A DNA stretch of 64,000 nucleotides from Patiria pectinifera (taxonomy: Eukaryota; Echinodermata; Asteroidea; Valvatida; Asterinidae). The notes under the pieces are model-generated. The model had not been told where the DNA came from. It searched no databases and saw only the letters and a program-made list of their open reading frames with translations. This document shows positions 6,896 to 63,938 of this stretch, piece by piece (position 1 is the stretch's first letter; every line of letters starts with the position of its first letter). The stretch covers positions 6,324,001 to 6,388,000 of the forward strand of contig CM057141.1 in assembly GCA_029964075.1 (NCBI GenBank), read 5' to 3'. The translations under genes and the position numbers were made by a program.

Positions 6896-7105
6896 TTATT
6901 TCTTCACAAAAGTAATGGCTAGCACCTCTGTGCCAGTTACCAGTGGGTAGTTTGTGGGCTGAGAGTTGACTGACTCGTAGGGAGGGGGCGGGGCCTCGAC
7001 ATCTGACAACTGGGGGGACTGCTGAGGATGGTAGTGGACCACGGGATCTCCAGGATTACTTCCGCTGGTTCGTAACCGGACCCGGGAATAGGTAGTCGAC
7101 GAAGC
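6896..7105 (-). CDS. SRCR receptor exon 14: cytoplasmic tail, stop codon
   Basis: The acceptor is TGTTTGTGACAG, joined in phase 0 to the transmembrane exon. It encodes 69 residues and TAA at 6,898-6,896. The tail contains [12 protein letters not shown]: a PPxY motif (WW-domain ligand, as used by Nedd4-type ubiquitin ligases) overlapping YESV, a tyrosine sorting motif of the Y-x-x-hydrophobic type. A second such motif, YPLV, follows. A possible GT donor (CCACTG/GTAACT) inside the exon would remove the last ~15 codons if used. No ITAM or kinase motif is present. Confidence 0.8.
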   Translation of the reverse strand, partial: ASSTTYSRVRLRTSGSNPGDPVVHYHPQQSPQLSDVEAPPPPYESVNSQPTNYPLVTGTEVLAITFVKK

Positions 7106-10100
7106 CTGTCACAAACAATAAACACTTTTGACAATCGCATGGCGTTTTGGGTATGGATGACAAACAAGCGATGCAATATACTCACAAACCTATCGGGGCA
7201 GTGAACCAGTCCCACTTTAAATTCCATTTTTTTCTTTAGAGTTTTTCAAAAAGTACTTGATCATCAGTGCTCATTTTAATGCAGAGAATATTTGAAATGC
7301 AATTGAAAATTAAAATCAAACTTTAAAACTTTGAAAACTAAAAATTATCCTAAAATTTCCAGTGCGCAGGCATTGAGGAATGATTGGTTACAGTTCGCTG
7401 AGAGAGCTTGAAATCCCAATTCTGATTGGCCAACATCGGCTTCTCCAGTTTCAGGGTCATAGTTACCTTTTTTTCCGAACAAGGGAATCCCAAAACTGTC
7501 TTCATTCTGATCAGTTTGAAACAATGATTTTTCAAACAATTGTATTTCACATCACTTATGTACCAAAGTGTGAAAAGATGATCACAAACTTTCAGATATA
7601 ATACTTAGGACGAATCAAACGAAAGTTAATTAGCTGGTTCACAGCCCCGTTGTTTTTGTGCACAAATTGCCTGGTTTCATTGTCATCCATTCTCAGAATG
7701 CACCGATCATTTCAGACAGGTTTATTTATGCCATTTAGTTTTTGTTTTGAATTGAAAAAATCTGGATAAATATGTGCTGGGCCAGTGGGGCCTGGACGCG
7801 GATTCAGAAAGGGCCATTATCGGCGACAGTTTTCCCATTCATGAATACTTTTCGATCAAAAATGCAAAACAAGTCAAAATTATAAATTTCCAACGATTTT
7901 GTTCAACTACATGTATTTCACTTCATGTTTTGTGAAACACCCCTCTAGCTATGGTTATGGTATGTGCCTCTCAGGAGTAGTACTAATATAGTAGTAACCA
8001 TTCTCTTGGTAGTATTGCATATACCAAAGTGTAGACTATGAACATTCAACCAATAAAAGGGTAAAATGGACCAGATTTCGTAGCGTTCCAAATTCACGTG
8101 ACACCGAAAAAAAGTGTTTAAAACCAGTTGGCGTTTCATCAACCGTTTAAAACCACCCAAGTGACGGGCTCCACCAGTAGGAATGGGTCAACTGTCCCGG
8201 GTATTTATAAATGATACATTAATGATCTTTTTTAGTAGAATGTTTTCAATGCAGTCACCATGGGCCTTATGCACAAGTTGGCCATTTGTCTCAAGTTCCC
8301 TGAATATATTTCATAAATTGTTAACTGTTGAATGGGATGGCACCAGACTATTTATGCCGCCTTAATTCACTGTCTTTTTTTTTAAATCGGGCTTAAAACA
8401 TTAGGGAATGTTTAATTACCAAATTTAAATATTTGTTGAAGCAGATTTGATTTAATTAAAACAATTTCCTTGCTTTAATTTCTTTTTGTAAGTTCCAAAA
8501 ATGAAGATGTTACCTCACTTTCAATTCAATATGGGCGACTCGTGCATAAGGCCCATTCTCTAGCAACGTGCAAATGAAGGGAACGGGGCCAAACTTACTG
8601 CCGTTGTTATGTTGGCAGGGCCTTCTTTCGACTTGCAACAGCACAGTTTGCAACAGACGCACAACAGAATACAGCCACCAATCACCCCGCAAACAATCCC
8701 AATTATCGCTCCGGAAGAGAGTCCTGGTTGGTATACTGTGGTTATCAAATGGTGACATGTCATTGGTTGAAACTGATCATGTGACATATTGCATAAAATA
8801 TCCCTATAATGCACTGGAGTATACCTCGGGTTAGGGGTGTGCATTTATGGGTAGTACAGGAATCCGGTACCCGATTGGCAAAAAAAAAAAGAAAAAGGGG
8901 AACCGTTAAAGGAACCAACACCAACAGTTTAATCTCGGAAGTTGCTCTACAGATTGTCCATAAAGGTCCGCAAGATAATATTTTAAGTTTGAGGTAAAAT
9001 TTGCTCTAGCAAGGCATCAAAGTTTTAAGTAAAGGTACTAAACTGCTTTAGTGAACAGGATTTTTGTGGGTGTTTGTTCCCAGATATGCAGCTCTATACA
9101 TACCTGGAGCACCGTTGCATTTCACCCACACGTCTTTAGCATGAGAACAGTAGTTATTATCCCACTGGCCATGGTCGCAATGGACTAGTCTGGTTTCGTA
9201 TCCTCCACAGGCAACATCATCAAGCCAGATGGGTTTGGTACTACTCCTTCCGGTTTCGTACTCTAAACCAAGCAATGAAACAAAAGGCTGAACACTATAT
9301 GTTCAAGTATTCGTCAATATTCCCCCAGGTAAATTTTCAAAATAAACAAACTGCTACCCAAAATTTACATCATTAACCTAAACCTTGCAAAACATAAAAC
9401 CTAAAAGTCTGTGTATGCACATCACGCACTCCAGGTTCCTTAGTGGAAGAGAATGTTGACGCCCCTTTTTTTCATCATATATCATCTCAATGAAGGTCAG
9501 TGAAAACGTGAAAAAGCCATGAATCTGGGACTGAGATTACAAAAATGGGGTTACAAAAATGCGCTCACATCATGCGGTATGCGGTTGCGGTTTTATGTCA
9601 AGAAATGGCTTCTAATTTAAAGCTACAGTCCATCATTTGCAGCTATCCAAAGAGTAACTGACGTAATTATTGTTGAAAAACATACTTCGTTGAAGACAAT
9701 TAAGGGAACTAAACTCCCTATGAAATTGTTCTTTCTGGCATGCTGTCATTTTGAAGAAATCAACGAAAGAAGGCCTTTCCTACGATGTGTCTAAAGATAG
9801 GTAGTTTATTTCTTTATTCGGCAAAGCGCGCACAGCGTTGATAAGACACACACGTGCGTGCAGTTGCTTTAATTCGTTGGATCAGTGTGCGATTTCACAT
9901 CAGCTGCAATCGGCTCAGTGAGAACGTGGACGCTGAATTCAGGCCCAATTCAAAACATGATTCAGCAACTTCTAATTTGAAATCGAGATCCTGGAATGTT
10001 GCTTTTCTCGAAACATACAGCTGAAGCTGAGGTGAAACTTCATCAGGTTAAATGTTCAGCACCTTTCATTAGATTTTGAGCTCGTTTGTTGCTTCAAACG

Positions 10101-13100
10101 AATAAAATGCACAAATTACAAATGATGGACTATACCTTGAAATATGGGCAATTTCAAAATTTGTAAATACCTGAAGCGTCAGATGTGGAGATGGCAAACT
10201 CCCGTCCCAGCTCCTTGCAAACCACGTCTGCATCCGTCTTGTCCCATTGGTCATTGCAGATGGTACCCCATTGTTGCTTGTAATAGATCTCAACGTATCC
10301 GTCAAACTCCGAATTACCCTCGACCAGACGTACCTGACCAAACTCATAGGCTGGTGAAAAAAACAAGAACCGCATTGAACATCACACTTGTGATGAACAC
10401 GACTACTGCATTTCTGACTCATCACCCAAGTTTGGCACATTTTGTTATTATGGCAATTTCTTAGCAACTTAAAAAAAAACCACAGCTATTTATTGTGTGT
10501 TAAATTTGGGAAAATTTTAAGATGATAATCAGAGTTTTGCACAAGTAAACCCCCCCCCTCCCCCCGCACCCCTGACAGTAAAGAAAAAAGACAGACACAT
10601 GAAGTTGAGAGGCACTGCCACTGTGCGCAAAATGCTTACATTAAGACGCTACATGTTTTTACATATTAATGAGCATTTTTGCATATTCAAATCAGTGTTT
10701 TTGCATATGAATTATGAAAAAGTGTATGTATAAGCATCGTGACACCAGTTAGCGCCTAAAGGGAGCAGGCAAAATAAAAATAAAAAAGTCCCATCTATTT
10801 CTTATGTCTACAACTGATGAAGAAGATTTTCCGGTGAGTTAAAGCCAGAGTCCATCATTTGCAGCTATCCAAAAAGTGAGTGACGTAATTAGTCATTGAA
10901 AACATACTTGGTTGAAAGATAGTAAGGGGACTAAACAGTGTTGTAGTCGAGTACTTTTTTCCAAGTACCGAGCACTGCCGAGTACTTAGATTGTTGAGTA
11001 CGAGTACGAATACTTGTGCTTCCGAGTACAAGAACAGGTCTCCGAGTACGAGTACTTGAATGTCCGAGTAAAAGTACGAGTACGAGAACTTGTACTTCCG
11101 GGTACGAGTACGACTACAAGTACTTCTATTCCAAGTACAAGTACTTGTAATTCCGAATACAGCACCGGGAACATTGTGCTTAAAGCCTAAAATTATGTTG
11201 TTAATCACTTGTGATACAAACTAGGGTTCGTCTTTGTAAGCTTTTTCAATTATTTGAAATTAATTTGTGTTTTTTAATCGTCAACAGCAGTCTCAAATCA
11301 ATGTAAATGTATTTTCCAAGGAAATGCTACACAGCTGAGATACTGACATGAAAGTTTAGGTCAACTGTCATTTAATAAAAATGTATTTATACAGTGTTGT
11401 GCATTTTTTATTATTGTTATGCATGTACTTTCGTGTCCTTGGATTCAAGTGAGACTAAAAAAAACCACAAGTACAACTAGCATTCAGATGGCTGAGAAAA
11501 GATTTCTTTATTTCTACTTAGTTTCAACCACTGTTCTTGGTGTTCTTACAAAAGCAGGGTGTTTCTCTCTTCTGCATTATGCTTGATGAAGTTCAGCAAA
11601 TATGCATGATGAAGTTCAAAGTTGTCCCATATGTTTCTGATATGCGAACAGCACAAAACAATTGCACGCTGCACTGTGGCCTTTCACGCCATTTTGGACA
11701 AATTCCCTGTGATCCTTGAACCCAAACTTCACAACAGTGGACACAGACGACATGATACATGTATTTTGAGGTTGTTTGCACGAACATCGTATACAATTTG
11801 GGTAAAAAAAAATTCAAAAGTGCCACACAGGCAAGCGTATTAAGCGAACGTCGACGGTACACGTATATGTACACGTACAAAAGTACATGCAACGTGTATG
11901 CAAAAAAAAACGGCAGATTCGCGTTTTTTTGGTGTGTAGGCCTATGCATTTAGTCTGCTTCCCATCCCTAGGCCTCTGTTTAAGGCTAGGCCACTGTGAA
12001 CCTGATGCCCCAACCAGATTAAGGGGCTCATTACTGGACCAAGCCTAGTCTAATGTGGCTTTCGCGAACCCGTGAATCCCGGGTTCGTATTCATGAGCCC
12101 CCTACTAAGATAATGGCTATTTAATCAGTTGATGACCATAAAATATGTTCTGGATAAGCACTCAGGCTATCCCCAATGTATATGCGTCTGTTGTTTAGAG
12201 CCAGCCTGCCTCCCATCAGAATTTAAGTGATGAGTGATGCGCCAGTTAAGTGCTGGAAAGCTACCTACAGCTAAGAAAGCCACTTTAGACTGGGCTTGGT
12301 CCAGTAATGTATTCATTTTGTGTCAGGTAATAAAAATCAATCTGTTTATAGGGTGCACAGACCTAATTCAAGCGAGAATTTCTACGCCAGCTGATTGTGC
12401 CCCCACAATTTCTTTTGAAAACGGAGACCGTTTGGCTTTAAAAAACGGTGGAATTGTTTAAATATACCCAAGGATCAACTCCCTGGTTTTGGGGCTTCCA
12501 TCTGAGGGCAGGCTTGATAAAATCACGGACGAAAAAATGGGTCCTATTTTCCTGTGACAGTGGAAGGGTGCCACTCTTAAAATGGCTACATGCAGGCTCG
12601 GGAACTATCACTTTTCGGCAGGTGATTTTATTTGGGTGTGAATATTTAAAAATGTAATTTGCTACGGTACGTAAAATTGAAAAGAAATGAAAAGATGAAA
12701 GACAAGACAATAATAAAAATTTTGTTTCAGAAACCCCAGTGATGTTGGCTTGCATGTTACTTGGCCCTGAACTTTGTTGATTTTACACTGTTTTCAATGG
12801 GGCTTGAATTAGTACAGTGGACCCTATATATATATTTCAAAATGGCGGCCTCCTGTACTCATGCGGGCGGGGGACTTAAAAACAGTTTTTTTTGTTTACG
12901 TTCGTCGTAGAAGTCGATAGAGAGACAAAAACTAGCTTTGGGAGACAGTTTTCTGGATTGTGAACAGAATAAGGCCTGGATAGGGCATAGCCTCATCCAA
13001 AGTGCATTATTGATGTACATGTACATGATATTCAGACTTAACTGGCTACAGTAATATAACCCTAGCTCAGGCCGACTTCAACCCTAACGGAGGGTATAAA

Positions 13101-16100
13101 CCTAATGGAGAGCACCCCTAACGGATCGTAACCCTAACGGGAGGCAACCCTACCGGATCGTAACCCTAACGGGAGGCAACCCTAACGGATCGTAACCCTA
13201 ACGGAGGGCAACCTTTGTGAAACGTAACCCTAACTGGAATGGTGGTGGTGGTGGTGGGGGGGGGGGTGTTGTTGTTGTTGAAGGGGGTACTCGGTGTGGG
13301 TGGTTGGTTAGGGGTGGGGATGGGGTGGGGGTGGATGGGGGTATCCTTTAAAGACATGAGTCTTCTAAGTAAAACCTTCAAAGACCAAGAAACATTTCCT
13401 CCCCACCCTTTTCAAGATAACCACGCCCACCCCACACAAAGGAATTTAATATTTAAATAATAAAAAAAAATCAAAGAAAACAAGCAAACAAAATAAAAAT
13501 GCTCCCATGCGCTCAGCCAACAACCCATACACCCACACCCACGCACATTTGGCAACAATAGAACTTTATTAAAATGATGCTATCATTATTTCTGAAGACA
13601 TTGCAGATTCCGTGTGTGTGCTGGTTTCATTACTGGACCAAGCCCAGTCTAATGTGGCTTTCGCGAACCCATGAATCCCGGGTTCGTATTCATGAGCCCC
13701 CTACTAAGATAATGGCTATTTAATCAGTTGATGACCATAAAATATGTTCTGGATAAGCACTCAGGCTATCCCCAATGTATATGCGTCTGTTGTTTAGAGC
13801 CAGCCTGCCTCCCATCAGAATTTAAGTGATGAGTGATGCGCCAGTTAAGTGCTGGAAAGCTACCTACAGCTAAGAAAGCCACTTTAGACTGGGCTTGGTC
13901 CAGTAATGTGTTTTTCATACCTCAGCTTCGGCCGTGTCTCTTTCTCCATTCATGCAGATTGGCAATGGGGCTGGAGCCGTATTATAGGACCGAAACCGGG
14001 GCTCAGAAAACGGCTTTGCTCCAAGCACCCAAGTTAATCGTACGCCCATTTTGTGGAACACCTCGGCGTACAGTGTGAACAATGATTGGCCATTGTACCC
14101 ACAAACGGCAAATGGGTCTTTGTGCGTAATTGGCCCAGGCCCAGACAGACATACAAACAGACCCAGTCACGGCTAGCTGTTAATTGTGTTTGTCCGGACG
14201 TGCGTAGAGTAGAGAAAATTTCGATTTCTCCGCAATCGACCATTTGAAACTAAAAGTATCAATAAAATAAAGCTGTGCACATGGTAACGTAAGTGCTTTA
14301 TACAATTTTTCTTATCGAGTACCGCTATTCGAGTACGAGTACTTTGTTTTATCGACTACTGTTATTCGAGTATGAGTACTTTGATGATCGAGTACAATTT
14401 GGACATGTGCGAGTACGAGTACTTTGCTGCCCGAGTACGAGTACCATTGTTTTAAGTACGAGTACTTTGACATTCGAGTACGAGTACGAGTACTCCAAAA
14501 AAAGTACTCGAGTAGTACTCGAGTACGAGTACCGAGTACGAGTACTACAACACTGGGACTAAACTCCCTGTGAAATTATTCTTTATGGCAAGCTGTCATT
14601 TTGAAGAAATCAACAAAAGAAGGCATTTCCAAAGGTGCTTCCTATGAAGCATCGTAGGAAATCTGTGTTGTTATTCGGCGAAGCGTGCGCAAGCATTGAT
14701 ACAACGCACATGCGCATGCATCATGTAGCTGCAATCGGCTCAGTGAGAACGTATATCGGACGCCTGAATTCAGGCCCAATTCAAAACATGATTCAGCAAC
14801 TTTTGATTTGAAAACGAGATCCTAGAATGCTGTTTTTCTCGGAATATACAGCTGAAGCTGAGCTGAAACGTCATCAGGTTAGTTGTTCAGTACCCTTCTT
14901 TGGATTTTGAGTACTTTCGTTGCTTCAAACAAACAAAATGCACAAATTACAAATGATGGACTATACCTTTAAGCCTTCTTTTTCGGATGGCAGGTGGATT
15001 TGTTTGTAGGTGAAAGGAATTGACAAAAATGCCCAGGAGGAAAAACAGAGGGACTGAGGAGATAATTTGTTACCTGCCGACGAACTGCTACAAGAAACAC
15101 TCGCGTCTTCACTGTGATGGCAGTTGTCCATAGTAGCATAAGAGCAATCCTGTATAGTGTCTTCGGTTCCCCGACAATTCACTTTGTCAAAAACTATCGA
15201 TCCGGTTCCAGGGCCATAGAATGCTTCCCCTGGAGCTGTCAGTGCTTCTCCGTAGCCAAGCTGGCGACAAACCACGGTGGCGTCTGCGAGATCCCAGTAA
15301 TCGTCGCAGACGGTGCCCCACACACCCCCGACATACACCTCCACACGGCCCTCCAGCGCGCTGTAACCGTCAACAAGTCGGATTGTAGACGAATCTGTAA
15401 TCACACGGGAAATAAATTTGTGTCGATACATTGAGACAGAAAAACATCCACCTAAGAAGAGGAAGTTCGGCGAGGACCATTAGTCGACTAGTGGTTGATT
15501 TGTGACAGAACTTTAGCCTGCACACCAATGGCAAGGCATGAATGCCTCTAGTCAAATGTCCTGGCTCCACCTGGCTATTGGTAACCAGCGATGGAACCAT
15601 GCCCCGGGCTCCGGTTTCAAATATTCGACAAAGGTACTCCAACCATCCTTTGTTTGAGTGCAGTTACTCAAACTATAGTTACCGGTAACTATAGCTTGTG
15701 TCCAAAATTGCTCTAAAGTGTTCGAACCCTCATCCTATTGAGCTTCAAACTTCCGATCTAAAAATAGAATAGAAACCTGTCAACCAAGTCTAAGACATCT
15801 GTAGCAGAAAGCAGGAGGTTGTGGGTTCGAATCCTGCCTGAGGAATACAGGGAAGAGACAAAAACCAAATTATTTGCCTATAGGTAATAATAGACTGGCC
15901 TACCTGACCCGGATGTACCACAGATGACACCCGCATCCTCACCATGTCCACAGTTTATATTTACAGTTGACTTCGTGCAATCCAGTAAGCTTGTCTCCGA
16001 TCCAGTGCACCCCACGTCATCAAACAAAATATCTCCGCTGCCCTGGCCAAAGCGTGCCGAGCTGACAGCTCGAACGGCTTCGCCATATCCCAGCTGGCGA

Positions 16101-61100: not shown

Positions 61101-63868
61101 CATATCTTTATGAAAAAATGGTACGGACTGAAACACTCGATCGTACCCAGAAAGTTCAGACTTTTACTGAAACAGTGGCCAATAAAAAGAAATTATTAAG
61201 CTTGCTGCACCTTGCCGCAAATCATTTTTAAAGGTCGGGGTACAGAGGCGAAACGAGACAATTTTGTACAACACTGCAACCAGACTAGTCTACTACCACA
61301 TGTTATTGTACGCAGGTGGGATTGGTGCCAGACTTATGTAGTCTGGCACGCGGTAACAGTTATAACGCTTGCACGCACGTGGAAAGCTGAAGCGCAGGCT
61401 AGGCGAAGGTGCTACGTACGTGAGTACGTTCAATGCAACCATTTCCAGTTCATTCGTGCGTACATTGTATATGCGTTCGTTTCACGGAACCCACTGCGGC
61501 AGAATCTCGAGGGTTTGATACGGTAAAAAATTAAAATTAATTAGAATAGAAAACACATCAAAATGGGCGGCCTCGAGCCGGCCTCGACCGATTCGCCGAG
61601 GCCGGAAGGCTCCGAGGACAAGGCCAAGGCCGAGGCCTTGCACCTCCGAGGCCAAGGCCGAGGCCAAGGCCATGAAAATCGGCCTCGAGGCCGGCCTCGA
61701 GGCCGAGGCCGGCCTCGAGACCTTCAACACTGGTGCAGTACTCATCCTAACAGATTCCAACAAACCCTGGTGTTGGAGTTTGGCTGGTTGGGGATCGTTA
61801 GGGTTAAAGCTCATTTCTGTTGTACAGTTTGTAGACATGAACATGAAGTATTGAACAAGGGCGGATCCAGAACACAATTTTTTGGGGGGGGGCAAAAAAA
61901 AATTGTGTCTTTCAAAAAGTGGGTTAAAAAATTACGGCGTGGGGTTCGGGGCCCGCTTAAGGGCCCCGAAATTTTTTTGGATTCTCGATGCTCTGTGGTG
62001 CGATCTGAGGCAATTTCTGACCACTTTAGCCAATGTTTTTTGAGGAAAAGATGGTGGTGTACTCATTGCCTGCCTTTAAGCTTTATTGCGACGTCACGTA
62101 AAAAAAAAACAATTGGTTTCGGGGTTTTTTTGGGGGGGGGGGTTGGCCCCCTTTGGCCCCCCCCCCCCGGATCCGCCCTTCAATACTATTGAATTTACTT
62201 TGTTCAAATGGTGTCTTTGAGAGGAATAGACCTATGTGTTATTGGATTCTTAACGAATAATACTAGCAAACGTCTTTTAGCTTATGAATTCGGACGGAAA
62301 TTTATGCGCCGAGCGAAATGCTTTTGTGTTCATCACATTTCACACTGAGTGGACCAATCCAGAGGCCAGCCCACCCCCTAAAATTCGCTAAATTTACCTG
62401 ATGACTAGTTTGTAAGGTTGATCATCTTTAAAAAAAATAAATAAAAAAAAATAAAAAACATTGTAAAGAAAATCAACATCTTTGGCCGCGCCTTTTCACA
62501 TTGTGACAATCGGACGACCCAAATAATATTCAGACAAGGAAATAAAGCATAATCTGTATCGTACGGAGCTCTGGAAGTGCCATCCGACTTGTTCAGATAC
62601 TGACTCATTTTATCTCAGGATGACGACATAATACAGGCAAGAAGACGACATCCTGAGATGATTTCTAAGGGGGTGACGACATCCTGAAAGTAGGATGACG
62701 ACATCTGGAGATAATTTATTATGGGACAACGACATCCTGAAAATATGATGACGACATCCTGAGATAGTTTATTAGGCCTATGGCATGACAACATCCTAAA
62801 ATAGGATGACGACATCCTGAGATAAATTATTAGGGGATGACGACATCCTGAAAGTAGGATGACGACGATACTGAGATAATTTGTTATGGGATGACGCTAA
62901 ACAGGAAGCAGGATGACGACATCACGACATAAGTTATCACGAGGTGCGTTGAAGCCATCTTGAAAACGCACAGGTGGACGTGCGGCTTGTATAAAATTTA
63001 TCATATTGCTGTATATTCATGGTATTTATTTGATGATGAGAGGTCATGTGCGTTTCCAAGATGGATTCAATGCACCTCGTGATATCTCAGGATGTCCTCA
63101 TCCTACTTTCAGGATGTCGTCACATCCTAATAAATTATCTCGGGATGTCGTCATCCTATTTTCAGGATGTCGTCATCCCCTAATAAACTATCTCAGGATG
63201 TCATCATGCCAGAAGAGATTGTCTTAAGATGTCGTCATCCTATTTTCAGGATGTCGTCATGCCATATTAAATTATGACGAGATGTCGTCACCCTACTTTG
63301 AGGATGTCGTCATCCCCTAACAAATTATCTCAGGATGTCGTCATCTTGCCTGTATTTTGTCGTCATCCAGAGATAAAAAAAGTCCGTATCTGAAGAACAA
63401 GTCAGATGGCACTCCCAGAGCTCCGTAGTATCCAAATTGCACATTCTGACAGTTTTTTTTTCATTGCACCCAAAAATGGCCTAAACTTTGACAACAGCCG
63501 AATATTCAAATCAAATAAAATCAACGGTATATAAACGTTTTGTAACTAGTGAAATATCCGCGAATGAGCTGGCAAATGGACTTGAATTGTTTCTTTTCCA
63601 GTGATTCCAACCGCATAGCCAGAGATTTTAGGGGTGTATTTCCGAGTGGCGGGGTATTCTGCAATTACTCCGAAACTTGATTCCAGTTCACAATCACGAG
63701 CATTTCTTGGCTAGGCCTATTCTTAAATTTTGTAAAGCCCCATACCCCCTTTCCCGACATACATTGCCACACCCACTTACCCTGTCCATTTGCGCCACCA
63801 GTGTTCAGCAAAAGGAAGATAGTCGTCAGAGCCAAAGTCAACCTCGTCCATTCCTTTACTGTTGCCAT
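6896..63868 (-). CDS. Multi-SRCR type I transmembrane receptor (14 exons assembled)
   Basis: The gene would encode a cell-surface receptor with ten extracellular scavenger receptor cysteine-rich domains, a family used in innate recognition and protein binding. The exons (high to low coordinate) are 63868-63781, 46029-45688, 39547-39236, 28988-28647, 27647-27336, 24794-24465, 22949-22641, 18816-18493, 16230-15904, 15394-15074, 10350-10171, 9262-9104, 8735-8599 and 7105-6896. All have AG acceptors and GT donors. All junctions are phase 1 except the last, which is phase 0. The sum is 3,693 nt, or 1,230 residues plus stop, with no internal stop. Each SRCR domain keeps the core G-x-W-G-T-[VI]-C-[DN]-[DN] and VVC[RK][QE]LG motifs and six cysteines. 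Gene span, order and phases are read from sequence; ligand and expression are unknown. An additional exon in the 17.7-kb first intron is possible. Confidence 0.85.
7820..8180. repeat. Dispersed repeat, inverted copy of intron element at 46.2-46.6 kb
   Basis: The block reading GAAACACCCCTCTAGCTATG and its neighbours is an inverted relative of sequence at about 24.9-25.33, 29.05-29.3, 35.47-35.72 and 46.19-46.62 kb (GGTTTAAAACGGTTGAT ... CTAGAGGGGTGTTTCG). It is an old dispersed DNA repeat. It lies in the last intron of the receptor. The rest of 7,106-8,598 shows nothing else I can name. Confidence 0.5.
8599..8735 (-). CDS. SRCR receptor exon 13: transmembrane segment
   Basis: The acceptor is ATAACCACAG (phase 1) and the donor is GGCA/GTAAGT (phase 0). 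After a short stalk (YQPGLSS) comes a hydrophobic span [17 protein letters not shown], then a cysteine cluster [14 protein letters not shown] at the cytosolic face. The cluster is a likely S-acylation (palmitoylation) region. A Gly-rich, Cys-rich span like this, followed by a proline/PPxY tail, resembles the Shisa/WBP1-type single-pass adaptors. That resemblance is inference from pattern only. Confidence 0.85.
9104..9262 (-). CDS. SRCR receptor exon 12 (F2): second half of tenth SRCR domain
   Basis: The acceptor is GGTTTAG and the donor CCAG/GTATGT, both phase 1. It encodes 53 residues with motifs [20 protein letters not shown] and VKCNG, which supply the last four cysteines of an SRCR domain. 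The first half is exon F1 at 10,171-10,350. This is the only SRCR domain in the gene that is split between two exons, and it is the most divergent. Confidence 0.85.
9622..10136. mobile_element. T2/Kolobok-like MITE, copy 1 (uninterrupted)
   Basis: The inverted ends are AGCTACAGTCCATCATTTG and CAAATGATGGACTATACCT. The left flank is TTAA; the right flank reads TTGA, a one-base decay of the same site. The ~515-bp body matches copy 2 at 10,843-14,968. TTAA targets with TTAAAG-type tips are known for T2/Kolobok MITEs. It lies in the intron between F1 and F2 and records the empty site for the hAT-like element inside copy 2. Confidence 0.7.
10171..10350 (-). CDS. SRCR receptor exon 11 (F1): first half of tenth SRCR domain
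   Basis: The acceptor is TTTTTTTCACCAG and the donor TTCAG/GTATTT, both phase 1. It encodes 60 residues: [18 protein letters not shown], then [20 protein letters not shown], the first two of six cysteines. It joins F2 in phase 1 through a split Glu codon. The sequence is further from the consensus than exons A-E (CNDQW instead of CDDxW, CKELG instead of CRQLG). Confidence 0.85.
12029..12309. mobile_element. 281-bp MITE, copy 1
   Basis: The inverted ends CATTACTGGACCAAGCC and GGCTTGGTCCAGTAATG extend to ~35 bp. The interior is AT-rich and non-coding. It is nearly identical to 13,628-13,908, in the same orientation. Confidence 0.8.
13080..13225. repeat. Minisatellite with CCCTAAC core
   Basis: About four to five copies of a ~32-bp unit carry CGTAACCCTAACGGGAGGCA variants. 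The CCCTAA core resembles a telomere hexamer, but it is embedded in a longer unit. A GGT/GGGG-rich run (about 13,240-13,350) follows. Confidence 0.7.
13628..13908. mobile_element. 281-bp MITE, copy 2
   Basis: It has the same length, orientation and ends as the copy at 12,029. The two differ at only a few positions. The 1.3 kb between them is unrelated, so either two insertions or a local duplication placed them inside the hAT-like element. Confidence 0.8.
15074..15394 (-). CDS. SRCR receptor exon 10 (E): ninth SRCR domain
   Basis: The acceptor is GTGTGATTACAG and the donor GCAG/GTAACA, both phase 1; 107 residues. Core motifs are [38 protein letters not shown] and [13 protein letters not shown]. 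The six cysteines lie in TVCDD, VVCRQ, VNCRG, QDCSY, DNCHH and VSCSS. A serine-rich linker (SSSSAG) precedes the donor. It is a complete group-A-like pattern in one exon. Confidence 0.9.
15780..15850 (+). repeat. tRNA-like fragment (possible SINE remnant)
   Basis: The sequence GGTTGTGGGTTCGAATCCTG has a perfect B-box (GGTTCGAATCC) with complementary flanks (GCAGGAGG/CCTGCC), as in the T-arm of a tRNA. A convincing D-arm and anticodon stem are missing. It is more likely a tRNA-derived SINE remnant in an intron than a working tRNA. Confidence 0.35.
15904..16230 (-). CDS. SRCR receptor exon 9 (D): eighth SRCR domain
   Basis: The acceptor is TTTTTTTCAG and the donor TCAG/GTAGGC, both phase 1; 109 residues. 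It has [36 protein letters not shown] and the six cysteines TVCDD, VVCRQ, VGCTG, LDCTK, INCGH and VICGT. It is a close paralog of exon C at 18,493; the adjoining intron sequence was duplicated with it. The linker before the donor is GTSGSG. Confidence 0.9.
16515..17625. mobile_element. PIF/Harbinger-like non-autonomous element
   Basis: The inverted tips are CATCGCGTTCCCACTTGA and, from the right, GACCCTGTTCCCACTTGA. A TTA duplication flanks it (16,512-16,514 and 17,626-17,628). The paralogous intron near 19,050 reads straight through (GTCACTTAGACAAGTG), which shows the empty site. TTA/TAA duplications are typical of PIF/Harbinger. Internal blocks of GGATCAGATCC / TTGCCGGATC repeats form sub-terminal repeats. 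No transposase frame was recognised. Confidence 0.65.
18493..18816 (-). CDS. SRCR receptor exon 8 (C): seventh SRCR domain
   Basis: The acceptor is TCTTGTTTTTTCAG and the donor TCAG/GTAGGC, both phase 1; 108 residues. It has [38 protein letters not shown] and six cysteines (TVCDD, VVCRQ, VACTG, LDCVK, NNCGH, VICGT). It differs from exon D mainly in the loop after the first cysteine pair and in the C-terminal third, so the two are products of one duplication. Confidence 0.9.
18770..19830. repeat. Intron segment duplicated with exons C and D
   Basis: The sequence upstream of exon C (about 18,817-19,830) matches that upstream of exon D (about 16,231-18,400), apart from the Harbinger-like insertion. 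Landmarks shared by both are GAACAATGCCACAGTTGTAT, GGCAGGGTTTCTAGCC, GACGATCGGACTCTCCCTTA and GACAAAACGTGTACAA. Both copies hold several TGACGTCA-like motifs. The duplication therefore included an exon and more than 1 kb of intron. Confidence 0.85.
20098..20371. repeat. 274-bp hairpin, ~130-bp arms
   Basis: TTAGATGATTGGTTTATATT opens the left arm, and its complement closes the right arm at 20,371. The match is near-perfect down to a centre around TGCGTTAACGCA (about 20,227-20,238). No coding. It is probably a foldback MITE in the intron between C and B3. Confidence 0.85.
20918..22177. mobile_element. Long foldback element, copy with 165-bp internal repeats (left tip missing)
   Basis: Bases ~20,918-21,540 recur inverted in ~21,640-22,140. 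Within each arm a ~165-bp unit (TTTTGAGGGTCAGGTATCAT ... TTGATTTTTAGCCAATATCT) is repeated about three times; copies begin near 21,091, 21,260 and 21,422. The right end carries the family tip TTTTCTACGCATTTTT. The left tip seen in other copies is absent. No transposase frame is present. Confidence 0.75.
22196..22227. repeat. Perfect 32-nt palindrome
   Basis: GTTCTAGCACATGGCC is followed by its exact complement. The paralogous sites at 26,955 and 38,875 have only one arm clearly (CATGTGCTAG), so the palindrome is particular to this copy. Confidence 0.8.
22641..22949 (-). CDS. SRCR receptor exon 7 (B3): sixth SRCR domain
   Basis: The acceptor is CCAATTCCAG and the donor GCAA/GTTAGT, both phase 1; 103 residues. 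Motifs are [38 protein letters not shown] and [18 protein letters not shown]. The six cysteines are in TVCDD, VVCRQ, VRCTG, QDCES, NDCNH and GVVCA. It retains the standard CDDEW, whereas B1 and B2 share the variant CDNQW. Confidence 0.9.
23401..23470 (-). pseudogene. Vestigial B-type SRCR exon, truncated
   Basis: An acceptor (AATTCCAG) precedes codons for [20 protein letters not shown] and IDG, then homology stops abruptly where WGTVC should follow. The surrounding ~450 bp also duplicate the area at 22,260-22,480 and 22,950-23,050. With no donor and no cysteines, it cannot code for a domain. It is a relic of a partly deleted exon copy. Confidence 0.8.
24465..24794 (-). CDS. SRCR receptor exon 6 (A3): fifth SRCR domain
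   Basis: The acceptor is AATACTAG and the donor TCAT/GTAAAT, both phase 1; 110 residues. Motifs are [38 protein letters not shown] and [13 protein letters not shown]. The six cysteines are TVCDD, VVCRQ, VKCRG, HLCPL, NNCRH and GVVCS. It is the most different of the three A-type exons. Confidence 0.9.
25329..26646. mobile_element. Long foldback element, complete copy
   Basis: The tips are AAAAATGCGTAGAAAACGAT and its inverted counterpart ending TTTTCTACGCATTTCTTTTT. Each arm is several hundred bp long. It holds the same internal repeat (GGTCAGGTATCATTAGAAGA / GCCAATATCTCGGCCAATAT) as the copy at 20,918. It lies in the intron between B2 and A3. Open frames inside are repeat by-products, since the same frame recurs at 38,073. 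Confidence 0.8.
27336..27647 (-). CDS. SRCR receptor exon 5 (B2): fourth SRCR domain
   Basis: The acceptor is CCAATTCTAG and the donor GCAA/GTTAGT, both phase 1; 104 residues. Motifs are [38 protein letters not shown] and [18 protein letters not shown]. The six cysteines are TVCDN, VVCRQ, VRCTG, QDCES, NDCKY and GVVCA. It is very close to B1 except in the first ~15 codons. Confidence 0.9.
28647..28988 (-). CDS. SRCR receptor exon 4 (A2): third SRCR domain
   Basis: The acceptor is TTAAATTCTAG and the donor TCAT/GTAAAT, both phase 1; 114 residues. Motifs are [38 protein letters not shown] and [18 protein letters not shown]. The six cysteines are TVCDD, VVCRQ, VNCRG, HLCPL, VRCGP and GVVCS. It is almost identical to A1 at 45,688; the substituted residues cluster near the fifth cysteine (VRCGPVD against VHCGHLE). 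Confidence 0.9.
29766..29871 (+). repeat. Gypsy 1 left LTR
   Basis: It matches 34,854-34,979 except for a ~20-bp gap after CCGTTTG. Both end CAGCGTTCTTATTTA. The gap, plus the frame damage in pol, points to an old insertion or recombination among related copies. Confidence 0.85.
29899..30648 (+). pseudogene. gag: Gypsy 1 gag-like frame
   Basis: It starts with ATG 27 bases after the left LTR. The N-terminus has a C2H2-like motif ([10 protein letters not shown]...H..H). The middle has [17 protein letters not shown] and [17 protein letters not shown], typical of capsid regions in this Gypsy lineage. The zinc-knuckle region that should follow lies in the next frame. The change of frame is near 30,575, where this frame turns into unrelated residues. 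It is either a damaging indel or a frameshift site; an indel is more likely, as no slippery heptamer stands out. Confidence 0.75.
30533..32530 (+). pseudogene. pol: Gypsy 1 pol, first part: zinc knuckle, protease, reverse transcriptase
   Basis: The true coding probably begins near 30,577; the upstream Met is incidental. In order: a cysteine-rich knuckle ([12 protein letters not shown] ... [14 protein letters not shown]), an aspartic protease motif ([12 protein letters not shown], about 31,117), and reverse transcriptase with [10 protein letters not shown] (about 31,835), [18 protein letters not shown] and the catalytic box [10 protein letters not shown] (about 32,130). The frame ends at a TAG in 32,528-32,530, just after the thumb region. 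Downstream sequence resumes in another frame, and part of RNase H including its first catalytic Asp region is missing. Confidence 0.85.
32568..34655 (+). pseudogene. pol: Gypsy 1 pol, second part: RNase H remnant and integrase
   Basis: It opens inside RNase H ([17 protein letters not shown], then [10 protein letters not shown]). The integrase follows: an HHCC zinc-binding part ([10 protein letters not shown] ... CNHCNRI, about 33,230-33,350), then the catalytic core with D in VCADFF, D in LASDGGPEF (about 33,575) and E in [12 protein letters not shown]. The C-terminal ~200 residues are proline-rich and end [18 protein letters not shown]. Integrase residues look intact; the N-terminal break makes the element non-functional. 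Confidence 0.85.
34854..34979 (+). repeat. Gypsy 1 right LTR
   Basis: It begins TAGAGGATTACCAACCTTTC and ends GCGTTCTTATTTA, followed by GATTC. It contains the 20-bp segment that is absent from the left LTR. Confidence 0.85.
35046..37593. repeat. Tandem duplication, 1,274-bp unit
   Basis: Bases 35,046-36,319 and 36,320-37,593 are almost identical; I see only a handful of differences (for example CTAAAGGGG against CTAGAGGGG). The unit spans the right end of the TIR element, the neighbouring intron sequence and the first ~345 bp of a foldback element. The junction (CATTAGA/TCAATATGATACAT) has little homology to the unit start, so the duplication probably arose by end joining or template switching. 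Confidence 0.9.
37244..38549. mobile_element. Long foldback element, complete copy
   Basis: The tips are the same as the copy at 25,329 (AAAAATGCGTAGAAAACGAT and TTTTCTACGCATTTC) and the bodies match over almost their whole length. A truncated third copy (35,970-36,315) lies in the first unit of the tandem duplication. Its shared position between B and A exons shows it was duplicated with the exon cassette. Confidence 0.8.
39236..39547 (-). CDS. SRCR receptor exon 3 (B1): second SRCR domain
   Basis: The acceptor is CCAATTCTAG and the donor GCAA/GTTAGT, both phase 1; 104 residues. Motifs are [38 protein letters not shown] and [18 protein letters not shown]. The six cysteines are TVCDN, VVCRQ, VRCTG, QDCES, NDCKY and GVVCA. 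The first ~45 bases match B3 while the rest matches B2, so the exon is a mosaic. Confidence 0.9.
40992..41849 (-). pseudogene. DIRS tyrosine recombinase, broken
   Basis: The upper part (41,466-41,849) has [17 protein letters not shown] and the arginine box [15 protein letters not shown] stop interrupts it. The lower part (40,992-41,246) has the HxxR-like box [13 protein letters not shown] and [12 protein letters not shown]; the region expected to hold the catalytic Tyr is in yet another frame. At least two breaks make it inactive. These motifs are those of DIRS-family recombinases, which integrate the circular element. Confidence 0.75.
41962..44042 (-). pseudogene. DIRS reverse transcriptase and RNase H, frame-broken
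   Basis: The longest frame (42,573-44,042) has [27 protein letters not shown] and the catalytic box [11 protein letters not shown] (about 43,160), then thumb sequence. RNase H continues in another frame (42,451 to about 42,720: [43 protein letters not shown]). A further stop separates 41,962-42,441 ([14 protein letters not shown], then [15 protein letters not shown]). The order RT, RNase H, then recombinase matches DIRS elements. Breaks exclude a functional protein. Confidence 0.85.
44023..45177 (-). pseudogene. DIRS ORF1 (gag-like), broken
   Basis: The start (44,902-45,177) has paired CxxC motifs (CGACRRIK ... CRSC ... CEVCHTW), typical of the N-terminus of DIRS ORF1. A proline/glycine-rich repetitive segment (SGPLAS / VSGAPE / PSGPLVS, 44,524-44,811) and an Arg/Ser-rich segment ([17 protein letters not shown], about 44,340) follow in other frames. 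It is a nucleic-acid-binding structural protein by analogy; too broken to work. Confidence 0.6.
45688..46029 (-). CDS. SRCR receptor exon 2 (A1): first SRCR domain
   Basis: The acceptor is TTTTTAATTCTAG and the donor TCAT/GTAAAT, both phase 1; 114 residues. It joins the signal exon to give [13 protein letters not shown]. Motifs are [36 protein letters not shown] and [18 protein letters not shown]. The six cysteines are TVCDD, VVCRQ, VNCRG, HLCPL, VHCGH and GVVCS. Its downstream intron holds the DIRS element. Confidence 0.9.
46190..46690. repeat. Dispersed intron repeat upstream of A-type exons
   Basis: This block (GGTTTAAAACGGTTGATAAA ... CTATAGAGGGGTGTTTCG) also lies upstream of A3 (24,950-25,330) and A2 (29,150-29,300, continued at 35,467-35,720), and is inverted near 7,820-8,180. 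It was carried along with the exon A-B duplications. Confidence 0.6.
46949..47615 (+). pseudogene. pol: BEL/Pao pol fragment: linker and integrase zinc domain
   Basis: It resembles the region between RNase H and integrase in BEL elements: [20 protein letters not shown], then [17 protein letters not shown] and [20 protein letters not shown], leading to [20 protein letters not shown]. The zinc-binding site is decayed (FFECQKW, where a CxxC is expected). The sequence upstream to 46,915 looks related but is in another frame. The fragment runs into a foreign repeat at 47,617. Confidence 0.75.
47617..48161. mobile_element. TIR insertion with CCGTTGAGACAACTCGAC termini
   Basis: The left end holds CGTTGAGACAACTCGACTCG, GGACAAGTCAACCGTTGAGA; the right end holds the same blocks inverted. 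The middle is GC-rich with repeated CGTTTTTGCCGGGCCTGTGC. The BEL frame resumes directly after it ([13 protein letters not shown]). No transposase is seen. Confidence 0.65.
48262..48971. mobile_element. TIR insertion TCGTCGCAGAGCTGACA with internal repeats
   Basis: The ends are exact inverted repeats (TCGTCGCAGAGCTGACA / TGTCAGCTCTGCGACGA). BEL codons flank it: ATATTTAA before and AAATGTATGACCACC after, with AA possibly duplicated. Inside, a ~120-bp segment is repeated (48,455 and 48,575: GCTGGTAACCAGCT(T/A)ATGTAAGG), each copy leading to an alternating GC purine-pyrimidine palindrome. Confidence 0.75.
49253..49575. repeat. Foldback MITE, ~78-bp arms
   Basis: ATGACGAACATGGAGCGCCG begins the left arm; its complement ends at 49,575. 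The arms include CTAATACAGGATTTTTTGAAC. It forms the right part of the insertion that interrupts the BEL pol at about 48,996. Gypsy 2 inserted at its right tip. The sequence 48,996-49,252 is unassigned. Confidence 0.75.
49576..49747 (-). repeat. Gypsy 2 LTR (3' on element strand)
   Basis: 172 bp, starting TGTTAGGTTACTGGTTTAAG and ending CCTGTTATAACA on the plus strand. I saw no difference from the LTR at 54,063. Confidence 0.9.
50059..52482 (-). CDS. pol: Gypsy 2 pol: reverse transcriptase, RNase H, integrase
   Basis: The frame continues from the gag-protease part after a one-base shift. RT motifs: [30 protein letters not shown] and the catalytic box [11 protein letters not shown]. RNase [16 protein letters not shown] and [11 protein letters not shown]. 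Integrase: [20 protein letters not shown] with CPHCQ, then D in [11 protein letters not shown] in VVTDNGPQF and E in [13 protein letters not shown]. The C-terminus ends [20 protein letters not shown]. All catalytic residues are present. The first Met is incidental; it would be made as part of a gag-pol protein. Confidence 0.85.
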   Translation of the reverse strand: MLNKAVAREQFSIPTLEEVLGKIAGAQLFSVLDAKHGFWQIPLHPDSQKLTTFITPFGRFCFNRLPFGITSAPELYQRIMSDLLVNLPGVVVYMDDVLVTGATPEEHDARLRHVLQILQGAGLKLNKDKCKIAQEQVHFLGHRLDKHGIHPDPAKLDAILQMSPPTTKEEVKRLMGMVNWLSRFIPHAATVAAPINALMKGDTEWTWGPAQRSAFRHLKTLLTTAPTLAYYDPTKPTMVSADASSYGIGGYILQKQEDESWRPVAYCSRSLTRAEQRYAQIEKELLAAVWSCERFFIYLRGLRVTLQTDHKPLVSLINKKDLCDAPLRCQRLLMRLMRYNCEAEYTPGKDLVVADALSRAPLQRDKVAEPDEDLEGEIEAHVHLITTQWPASDAKLVEIALETSHDRTLSAVITHVQDGWPKYQKDVDPELKRFWDDQDKISIVGGILTYGDRIVIPQSLRQQMLQRIHEGHQGVSKSRLRANQALWWPGMSTDIAQYVQSCPHCQDMQPSQRAEPLMSTPLPQRPWQQIACDLAEVKGKMYLVLVDYYSRWIELHHLHSTTAKSVINFIKATFARYGIPEVVVTDNGPQFLGEFDQFAREYNFQHITSSPYYPQANGQAEKAVHIAKRLLSQDDPVRALMLYRSTPLPSLGQSPASLLMGREIRTTLPILPRNLQPKKVDHNKLKATDNMNKQKSGQTFNKRHGARQLDDLMPGDKVKIRTKGQLSPEGEVVRQAGTPRSYIININGTEYRRNRRHIFLLPKPSLDPVLDIQTSCKETKDPQPAESRPTRVTRPPVWHKDYIVSQN
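52490..53920 (-). pseudogene. gag: Gypsy 2 gag and protease, ending in a frameshift
   Basis: The first ATG of the frame is at 53,920 ([10 protein letters not shown]); upstream codons to 53,959 are open but begin with GTG. The gag region has [20 protein letters not shown], then a cysteine-rich part ([20 protein letters not shown]) and knuckle [14 protein letters not shown]. Protease: [14 protein letters not shown] (about 53,020). RT begins ([21 protein letters not shown]) and the frame is lost in an A-run at about 52,511-52,520, read as PKKKWKHQS instead of continuing. The one-base shift in a homopolymer may be a real mutation or a sequencing error. Confidence 0.85.
54063..54234 (-). repeat. 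Gypsy 2 LTR (5' on element strand)
   Basis: 172 bp, apparently identical to 49,576-49,747. Immediately internal (minus strand) is TGGTGGCAGCGGTGGTTGAT, the putative primer-binding site. Confidence 0.9.
54240..55330 (+). pseudogene. pol: BEL/Pao pol fragment: integrase core and C-terminal domain
   Basis: The codons for [15 protein letters not shown] open the fragment; then [19 protein letters not shown] in shifting frames and [20 protein letters not shown], the conserved end of a BEL integrase. The C-terminal (DUF5641-like) part reads [20 protein letters not shown] and [18 protein letters not shown] (54,868-55,054) splits it before VDPA and [12 protein letters not shown]. Several stops and frame changes show it is dead. 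Confidence 0.75.
54868..55054. mobile_element. 187-bp MITE, CAGTGGCGTAGCC ends
   Basis: The tips are CAGTGGCGTAGCCAGGAA and CGGCTACGCCACTG. GTCATTAT (54,856-54,863) and GTCGTTAT (55,055-55,062) look like an 8-bp target duplication with one mismatch. The interior is rich in G runs (TTTCATGGGGGG twice). CAGTGGCGTAGCC ends are widespread in animal MITEs. It is the latest event in this part of the BEL remnant. Confidence 0.75.
55700..56440 (+). mobile_element. CR1/Jockey-like LINE, 3' fragment
   Basis: It codes for the C-terminus of a LINE reverse-transcriptase protein: [60 protein letters not shown] and, after a one-base shift at about 56,115, [12 protein letters not shown] and [20 protein letters not shown]. 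The stop is at about 56,361, followed by a short 3' UTR ending in (GTAAGT)n at about 56,421-56,441. A 5'-truncated copy with a microsatellite tail is typical of CR1-type elements. Confidence 0.8.
56442..57334. other. No gene seen
   Basis: AT-rich sequence without convincing coding, RNA or repeat structure. A tRNA A-box-like string (TAGTTAGCTCAATGGTACAA, 56,623) stands alone with no B-box at the proper distance. Confidence 0.4.
57335..58880. repeat. Three tandem copies of a ~575-bp repeat
   Basis: The marker AAAATCACGTGACCCTT occurs at 57,490, 58,062 and 58,640. Other shared blocks are TGACGTCACAATGACGTCAT, CGGTCGAAACCGGAAGTGCC-like and GCGAACTTGCTTTCAACGAT. Divergence is considerable, so the array is old. 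Each unit carries CRE-like (TGACGTCA), E-box (CACGTG) and Ets-like (CCGGAAGT) motifs. The function is unknown; they may be intron sequence only. Confidence 0.85.
58881..59847. other. No gene seen
   Basis: Non-coding, AT-rich; no repeat structure recognised apart from short (CATG)n-like runs. Confidence 0.4.
59848..61732. mobile_element. hAT-like element with (GAGGCC)n inverted termini
   Basis: The left tip is CAGTTCAGTGTTGTAGTCGAGG and the right tip CCTTCAACACTG. The 8-bp sequence GTGCAGTA lies at 59,840-59,847 and 61,733-61,740. The inner tip CAGTGTTGTAGTCGAG is the same as in the element at 10,936, but the hexamer array beside it is CGAGGC instead of CGAGTA (59,867-60,002; inverted at 61,571-61,726). 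The element has no transposase and holds a glutaminase-like exon fragment on the minus strand. Confidence 0.7.
60690..60814 (-). pseudogene. Glutaminase-like exon fragment inside the hAT-like element
   Basis: A polypyrimidine-poor but proper acceptor (GTGGTTACAG) precedes an open stretch of ~41 codons: [20 protein letters not shown], then [20 protein letters not shown]. The G-[FL]-K-S-x-DPR-[IL] pattern and the preceding LP...F/L spacing recall the helical N-terminal region of kidney-type glutaminases, where a G-L-x-x-x-DPRL motif is found. No GT donor of good quality follows. It looks like a captured genomic piece: intron end plus part of an exon. Identification is tentative because the match is short. 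Confidence 0.4.
61857..62180. mobile_element. 324-bp MITE, AAGGGCGGATCC ends
   Basis: The tips are AAGGGCGGATCC and GGATCCGCCCTT. Near each tip lies a run of G or C (GGGGGGGG at 61,885; CCCCCCCCCCCC at 62,157). The flanks are AGTATTGAAC and CAATACT, which extend the inverted symmetry. It is non-coding. Confidence 0.7.
62556..63433. repeat. Inverted minisatellite, GATGACGACATCCTGA units
   Basis: The left arm (62,556-62,940) has about a dozen GATGACGACATCCTGA-type units with variable spacers (AGATAATTTATTA, AAAGTAGG). The right arm (63,085-63,433) has the same units inverted. The outer flanks are also inverted (TACGGAGCTCTGGAAGTGCC and GGCACTCCCAGAGCTCCGTA). The ~140-bp centre is unrelated. 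It could form a long hairpin. Confidence 0.85.
63781..63868 (-). CDS. SRCR receptor exon 1: signal peptide
   Basis: The chosen ATG (63,868) has a good context (AACATGG). An in-frame ATG at 63,883 lies upstream in poor context. The exon codes for 29 residues: a short basic start (MATVKEWTR), a hydrophobic core ([12 protein letters not shown]) and a likely cleavage after GGANG. The donor is CAGG/GTAAGT, phase 1, which matches all the SRCR exons. It is 17.7 kb from exon A1; assignment to the same gene rests on strand, phase and the lack of another candidate. Confidence 0.65.
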
Positions 63869-63938
63869 GTTTAATATGAACATGGACGATGATGGTATTT
63901 TACGAATTTCTGTTCATTCGATGTTTGTTATTTCGTCC

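Follow-up and report, generated by a model that had tools for sequence, protein, structure and literature searches.

The window analyzed here is a stretch of 64,000 nucleotides that looks eukaryotic, given that introns divide its coding blocks, which are set amid retrotransposons; no Rfam family matched anywhere in the window at gathering thresholds. With borders set from the sequence, 14 exons on the minus strand were joined into one coding sequence of 3693 nt, encoding 1230 amino acids with a single stop at its end, and all 13 introns of the joined model are GT-AG. The joined frame and hmmscan give the protein order as signal peptide, ten SRCR domains, membrane span and tail. A first-pass annotation had proposed fourteen same-strand exons joining without a stop, this same domain order, and symmetric phase 1-1 SRCR exons; all of this was borne out (11 of 11 SRCR exons are 1-1), and its signal and tail exons coincide with ours to the nucleotide. 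A profile derived from the window recovered nine complete SRCR domains, one in two halves and one truncated copy, all on the minus strand. The ten domains thus occupy 11 exons because nine are encoded by single exons and the tenth, next to the membrane, by two.

Exon 1 (63781-63868, phase 0 to 1) starts with an ATG in the context AACATGG, with a second in-frame ATG at 63883, and encodes a signal peptide of 29 residues. The SRCR arm follows, its domains classified into sequence types A to E (labels of our own) in an order that presupposes a correct assembly. Domains 1 to 9 are single exons of phase 1-1: B3 (45688-46029), A3 (39236-39547), B2 (28647-28988), A2 (27336-27647), B1 (24465-24794), A1 (22641-22949), C2 (18493-18816), C1 (15904-16230) and D (15074-15394). 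Domain 10 is encoded by E1 (10171-10350) and E2 (9104-9262), both also 1-1. The membrane exon (8599-8735, phase 1-0) encodes a span of 28 residues, after which ten residues form a cysteine-rich inner edge before the 69-residue tail; the tail exon (6896-7105, phase 0-0) ends in TAA. Neither AATAAA nor ATTAAA occurs in the first 1,949 nt past the stop.

Membership of the SRCR superfamily is clear from hmmscan, which returned ten PF00530 stretches at E=4e-295. All ten domains carry six cysteines, the number conserved in group A (PMC10855680), and none has the eight cysteines that are usual in group B (WC1, CD163, DMBT1). The exon rule given in PMC3100851, by which group A domains are encoded by two exons and group B domains by one, does not hold for this gene, with one two-exon domain and nine single-exon domains. 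The domains are 34-94% identical to the first, and their sequence relatives in the PDB (28 distinct sequences) include CD163, PIT54, CD5L, CD6, LOXL2 and DMBT1, among others. Pfam matches to YecR, DUF2997 and DUF6156 all fall inside SRCR domains and were discarded as spurious. With its signal peptide, domain array, single span and cytoplasmic tail, the product has the layout of a multi-SRCR type I receptor as far as sequence can tell, and there is good support for describing it as a type I receptor with ten SRCR domains. Given the family to which it belongs, a link to innate recognition can reasonably be inferred for this gene.

The signal exon and the first SRCR exon are 17.75 kb apart and linked only by phase and position. 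The terminal exons could therefore belong elsewhere, the signal exon starting another gene or the SRCR gene having its first exon outside the window, and the several transposon pieces in this long first intron make that easier to imagine. Among them is a Gypsy-type LTR element (49576-54234) with reverse transcriptase, RNaseH and integrase matches in minus-strand frames and a gag match below cut-off, which is judged young because its two 172-bp LTRs (TGTT...AACA) are identical and flanked by a GTCAT target duplication. When the 17,970 nt that precede the first SRCR exon were dinucleotide-shuffled 300 times, 4 shuffles held a comparable signal exon (donor at least 9 bits, hydropathy at least 2.4), and at looser limits (donor 7, hydropathy 1.8) the average was 0.423 candidates per shuffle. 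In the real sequence, a scan of both strands for initial exons with a donor of at least 7 bits and core hydropathy of at least 1.8 gave five candidates, two of which are the alternative starts (63868 and 63883) of the signal exon; these rank highest on both measures, and the exon ends in the required phase 1. The first intron holds 47 non-transposon minus-strand frames of at least 45 aa, and none of the 20 longest reached a curated Pfam cut-off; the sole match among these 20 at E<=0.01, to EF-hand_14 (E=0.005), was below its curated cut-off and was rejected as chance. We thus regard a misassigned terminal exon as improbable.

A similar scan for the membrane exon, run without a shuffle control, gave no plus-strand candidate and two on the minus strand, which are alternative acceptors of this one exon. 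The cut-offs of the signal- and membrane-exon scans were set after the exons had already been seen, and the splice matrices hold approximate, generic textbook values untrained on the source species. On that acceptor matrix several borders score weakly, with B1 and B2 in the top 36% of AGs and the membrane exon in the top 32%.

Self-comparison of the window revealed three units in the same orientation, each composed of a palindromic element of ~166-bp repeats together with an A and a B exon, and all on the minus strand; like the domain order, these units presuppose a correct assembly. Unit 1 (20916-25332) holds A1 and B1, unit 2 (25328-29302) holds A2 and B2, and unit 3 (37243-46573, comprising 37243-40479 and 45586-46573) holds A3 and B3 on either side of a DIRS-like insert. 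The palindromic elements, one beside each B-A unit (20916-22130, 25392-26583 and 37307-38483), are possible recombination substrates. The DIRS-like element (40480-45585) has a reverse transcriptase frame, inverted repeats at 40531-40629 and 45419-45519, and a Phage_int_SAM_1 match (E=0.00098) below cut-off; the homologous site is uninterrupted in units 1 and 2. Unit 1 additionally contains a truncated eleventh SRCR exon, absent from the first-pass annotation. This type A relic, A0 (23401-23470, minus strand), keeps its acceptor and approximately its first 23 codons, ceases to be homologous to the other copies at 23401, and on read-through meets a stop. It is the remnant of one more local duplication together with a deletion. 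Between units 2 and 3, plus-strand retrotransposon frames with reverse transcriptase, RNaseH and integrase matches span 29890-34655. At the window edge, positions 1-561 are repeated at 984-1542 with 95.5% identity.

Repeats this similar could also be allelic copies of a polymorphic genome that an assembler had set in tandem. The segments 25328-28116 and 37243-40026, which include A2 and A3, are 95.8% identical, and a 1271-bp tandem duplication (35047-36317 and 36321-37591) is 99.7% identical, being either very recent or itself an assembly effect. However, the aligned B exons show differences at 3.5 to 13.3% of sites and have conflicting flanks, the units carry different inserts, and a head-to-tail order of three units with a relic of their own is not what two alleles would be expected to give. 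Such an artefact is very unlikely to account for the B-A array.

The three B exons and their flanking introns disagree as to which copies are closest. In pairwise alignments, B1 and B2 are closest in the flanks (K80 of 0.038 upstream and 0.053 downstream), whereas in the exon B2 is closest to B3 (K80 0.036, against 0.147 for B1-B2). Informative sites divide accordingly: in the flanks 23 join B1 with B2 and nine join B2 with B3, and in the exon these counts are five and 37 (Fisher P=1.4e-7). The longest run of B2=B3 sites covers 16 of 90 variable sites, a length reached in one of 20,000 permutations. Because sites in duplicated DNA are not independent, these P values, like the next one, serve as guides. 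Diversifying selection as sole cause of the divergent B1 exon was considered and rejected, since synonymous change between B1 and B2 (~12 of 78 sites) also exceeds change in the flanking introns (36 of 787; P=6e-4). B2 is a B3-like exon within B1-like introns; the conflict between exon and flanks is an observation, and exchange between copies is the cause that we infer for it. Had B3 converted B2 and nothing else happened, B1 and B3 would be equally divergent in exon and flanks. The B1-B3 exon distance (K80 0.144) is higher than that of the flanks (0.080 and 0.112), so that the B1 exon may have taken in other sequence or evolved at a higher rate. For CD163/WC1, gene conversion has been proposed (PMC2906472). 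Apparent small-scale mosaicism was also seen among the A exons, where GD-D residues are common to A2 and A0.

The copies also differ at residues that would matter for ligand binding. In SALSA/DMBT1, cation site 2 consists of D1019, D1020 and E1086 and site 3 of D1020, D1058, D1059 and N1081, and changes at D1019 or D1020 abolished binding (PMC7043408). We placed the corresponding positions in each domain by residue spacing relative to SALSA/DMBT1, rather than by structural alignment, and on this mapping the site 1 aspartates are present in all ten domains. All six predicted cation-site residues are found in two domains, C1 and C2. Five of six occur in A1 (N1081 to D), B1 (E1086 to G) and D (D1059 to K), four in B2 (with R and D) and B3 (with N and H), and three in A2, A3 and E; eight of the ten domains therefore lack at least one. 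Site 2 is complete in B3, A1, C2, C1 and D and incomplete in the other five. This uneven retention makes the C pair the best candidate for metal-dependent binding and indicates that the copies diverged at the site.

The tail carries two short motifs, a 12-residue segment that includes PPPPYESV, and YPLV. A PPxY motif is weak evidence by itself, given that one arises in 7,263 of 100,000 shuffles of the tail. The membrane-tail segment matched no Pfam family at E up to 1, and so showed no match to the Shisa-like family. Use of NEDD4-type ligases or of endocytosis by the tail is what these motifs would predict. A narrow literature search returned no report of SRCR domains combined with PPxY, which is weak ground for calling the combination unreported.

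Uneven loss of site residues, with only three of six left in A2, A3 and E, might instead be read as the decay of a pseudogene array, as might the truncated A0 exon and the Nei-Gojobori dN/dS of some pairs (0.94 for C1-C2, 0.80 for B1-B2 and 0.76 for B1-B3). Further pairs gave 0.64 (A2-A3), 0.53 (A1-A3), 0.52 (B2-B3) and 0.42 (A1-A2). Against decay, all 14 exons are open, the six cysteines are intact in every domain, and three computable older pairs show low ratios (0.13 for A1-B1, 0.18 for A1-C1 and 0.23 for B1-D), with C1-D and B1-C1 saturated. We consider a pseudogene array most unlikely. No computed pair exceeded 1, and positive selection is thus not demonstrated.

Taken as a whole, the locus is probably one minus-strand animal gene for a multi-SRCR type I receptor that combines metal-dependent binding with endocytosis and whose arm grew by duplication of, and exchange between, B-A units. 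Once expressed, the predicted receptor would have a cleaved signal peptide, ten group A domains in the order B-A-B-A-B-A-C-C-D-E, one span and the 69-residue tail. Several domains at once would most likely bind polyanionic, microbial or altered-self ligands through a metal-dependent SRCR surface, which C2 and C1 retain most fully. Uptake by endocytosis would follow ligand binding, with the PPxY and YxxPhi motifs of the tail recruiting NEDD4-family ligases or adaptors. The outer arm would have lengthened by tandem duplication of the two-exon B-A unit, with later exchange between units producing the mosaic B2 exon. The gene may thus serve as a case of how a recognition arm is lengthened, by tandem copying of a two-domain unit accompanied by apparent exchange and by uneven loss of metal-site residues between the copies.

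The first-pass annotation had further described every exon as phase-compatible and any SRCR exon as skippable. The former is true of each consecutive join but does not extend to free skipping, since the phases of the signal, membrane and tail exons are 0-1, 1-0 and 0-0, respectively. As to the latter, the frame does survive the loss of SRCR exons, but the codons split at their borders impose limits of their own. Every B exon has T as its last base, whereas AG opens C2, C1 and E2, so that joining a B exon directly to C2, C1 or E2 reads TAG at the split codon; nine of the 78 forward joins among the 13 exons from signal peptide to membrane span create this stop. Skipping a single SRCR exon leaves the native tail in reach in 10 of 11 cases, the exception being A1, whose lone loss brings TAG at the B1-C2 join and stops the protein after residue 575. 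Because of that join, A1 can be dropped before C2 only along with the B exon that would precede it. Contiguous skips reach the native tail in 57 of 66 cases, and 1523 of all 2048 subsets of the 11 SRCR exons do so, the other 525 all stopping at B-to-C2/C1/E2 joins. Loss of E1 or E2 alone keeps the frame but leaves half a domain. Skipping the membrane exon would yield 1131 residues with a new 16-residue end, possibly a soluble form of the receptor.

These counts bear on whether the gene is above all an isoform generator, in which regulated skipping of symmetric SRCR exons would give rise to many variants, secreted forms among them. That all 11 SRCR exons are 1-1, that most skips preserve the tail and that a soluble product is predicted would fit this reading, as would the donors of the six A and B exons, which on the approximate matrix score 4.4-4.8 bits, below all seven other donors (5.1-10.0). 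Precedent comes from bovine WC1, with described cDNAs from which between one and six SRCR domains, or else the membrane region, are missing (PMC2681482). However, SRCR is named among the class 1-1 mobile modules, in which the same symmetry also makes it easier to lose a domain by exon skipping (PMC3927616), and the phase class, being general for the module, is no special evidence for isoforms; the TAG joins, moreover, restrict the loss of A1. An isoform generator is accordingly a possible but doubtful account. Symmetric phases alone do not license free skipping, since a split codon can forbid particular joins, and the resulting rule is a cheap prediction that applies to SRCR gene families generally and can be checked by cDNA.

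The join rule need not have been selected, since a T before AG makes a stop in any gene. A bolder and rather unlikely proposal ties it to the array, with the B-A pair as an evolving cassette. Units would be gained by unequal exchange, and gene conversion in exon-sized tracts would swap their exons without disturbing the separate history of the introns. The ban on B-to-C2/C1/E2 joins would make the cell keep the last A exon together with its B partner. If true, each step in receptor diversity would cost two whole domains, in the genome as well as in splicing.

For the receptor gene as we interpret it, the closest described parallel is bovine WC1, a gamma-delta T cell co-receptor (PMC2681482), which shares the membrane-receptor layout, single-exon SRCR domains (11 in WC1), a coding region of ~60 kb, one exon for the membrane region and a repeated SRCR block. 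According to the same source, WC1 differs in being group B, with inter-domain exons, a tail of four or five exons and a five-domain block repeated once; the present gene has six-cysteine domains, no inter-domain exon that we found, one tail exon and a two-domain block present three times. Sea urchin SRCR genes share group A membership, single-exon domains and expansion by duplication, and replication units of one or two domains have already been described for sponge SRCR (Figure 5 legend of PMC10855680). The sea urchin and sponge units in that report concern tandem genes, and the present gene also has one domain split over two exons. CD163 and PIT54, the top PDB sequence matches, share the tandem SRCR ectodomain, with no orthology claimed; CD163 mediates ligand internalization (PMC2906472) but is classed in group B, unlike the six-cysteine domains here. 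DMBT1/SALSA likewise has SRCR repeats, with a cation-dependent ligand site of its own (PMC7043408), but is placed in group B (PMC3100851) and its domains are >88% identical, whereas those of this gene vary more widely and differ at the site. CYYR1, a Shisa-like membrane adaptor, shares a single span followed by a PPxY tail (PMC11399591), a resemblance only. Earlier reports thus already cover SRCR modules of phase 1-1, domains encoded by single exons, genes of 60 kb, block duplication and forms that are secreted or have skipped exons, best in bovine WC1; what is new here are the three tandem B-A units, the truncated A relic, the mosaic B2 exon and the uneven cation-site residues.

Viral and prokaryotic contig collections contained one viral-filed and 21 bacterial-filed loci, none informative on the animal gene. 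The viral-collection contig (L001:4554-7055) encodes an 833-residue protein with one SRCR domain at 50% identity, in which an N-terminal hydrophobic stretch, long proline runs and several hydrophobic segments were noted by eye. Two bacterial-filed loci (L020 and L022) lie on one contig, LWTN01000219.1, filed as a Cycloclasticus sponge-symbiont genome; in L020, SRCR and EGF-like pieces are broken across short frames, and the contig looks like sponge host DNA in the bin. The other 19 bacterial-filed loci (L002-L019 and L021) have SRCR-like domains, and by their titles nine are myxobacterial, six are from Gammaproteobacteria and four are from other groups.
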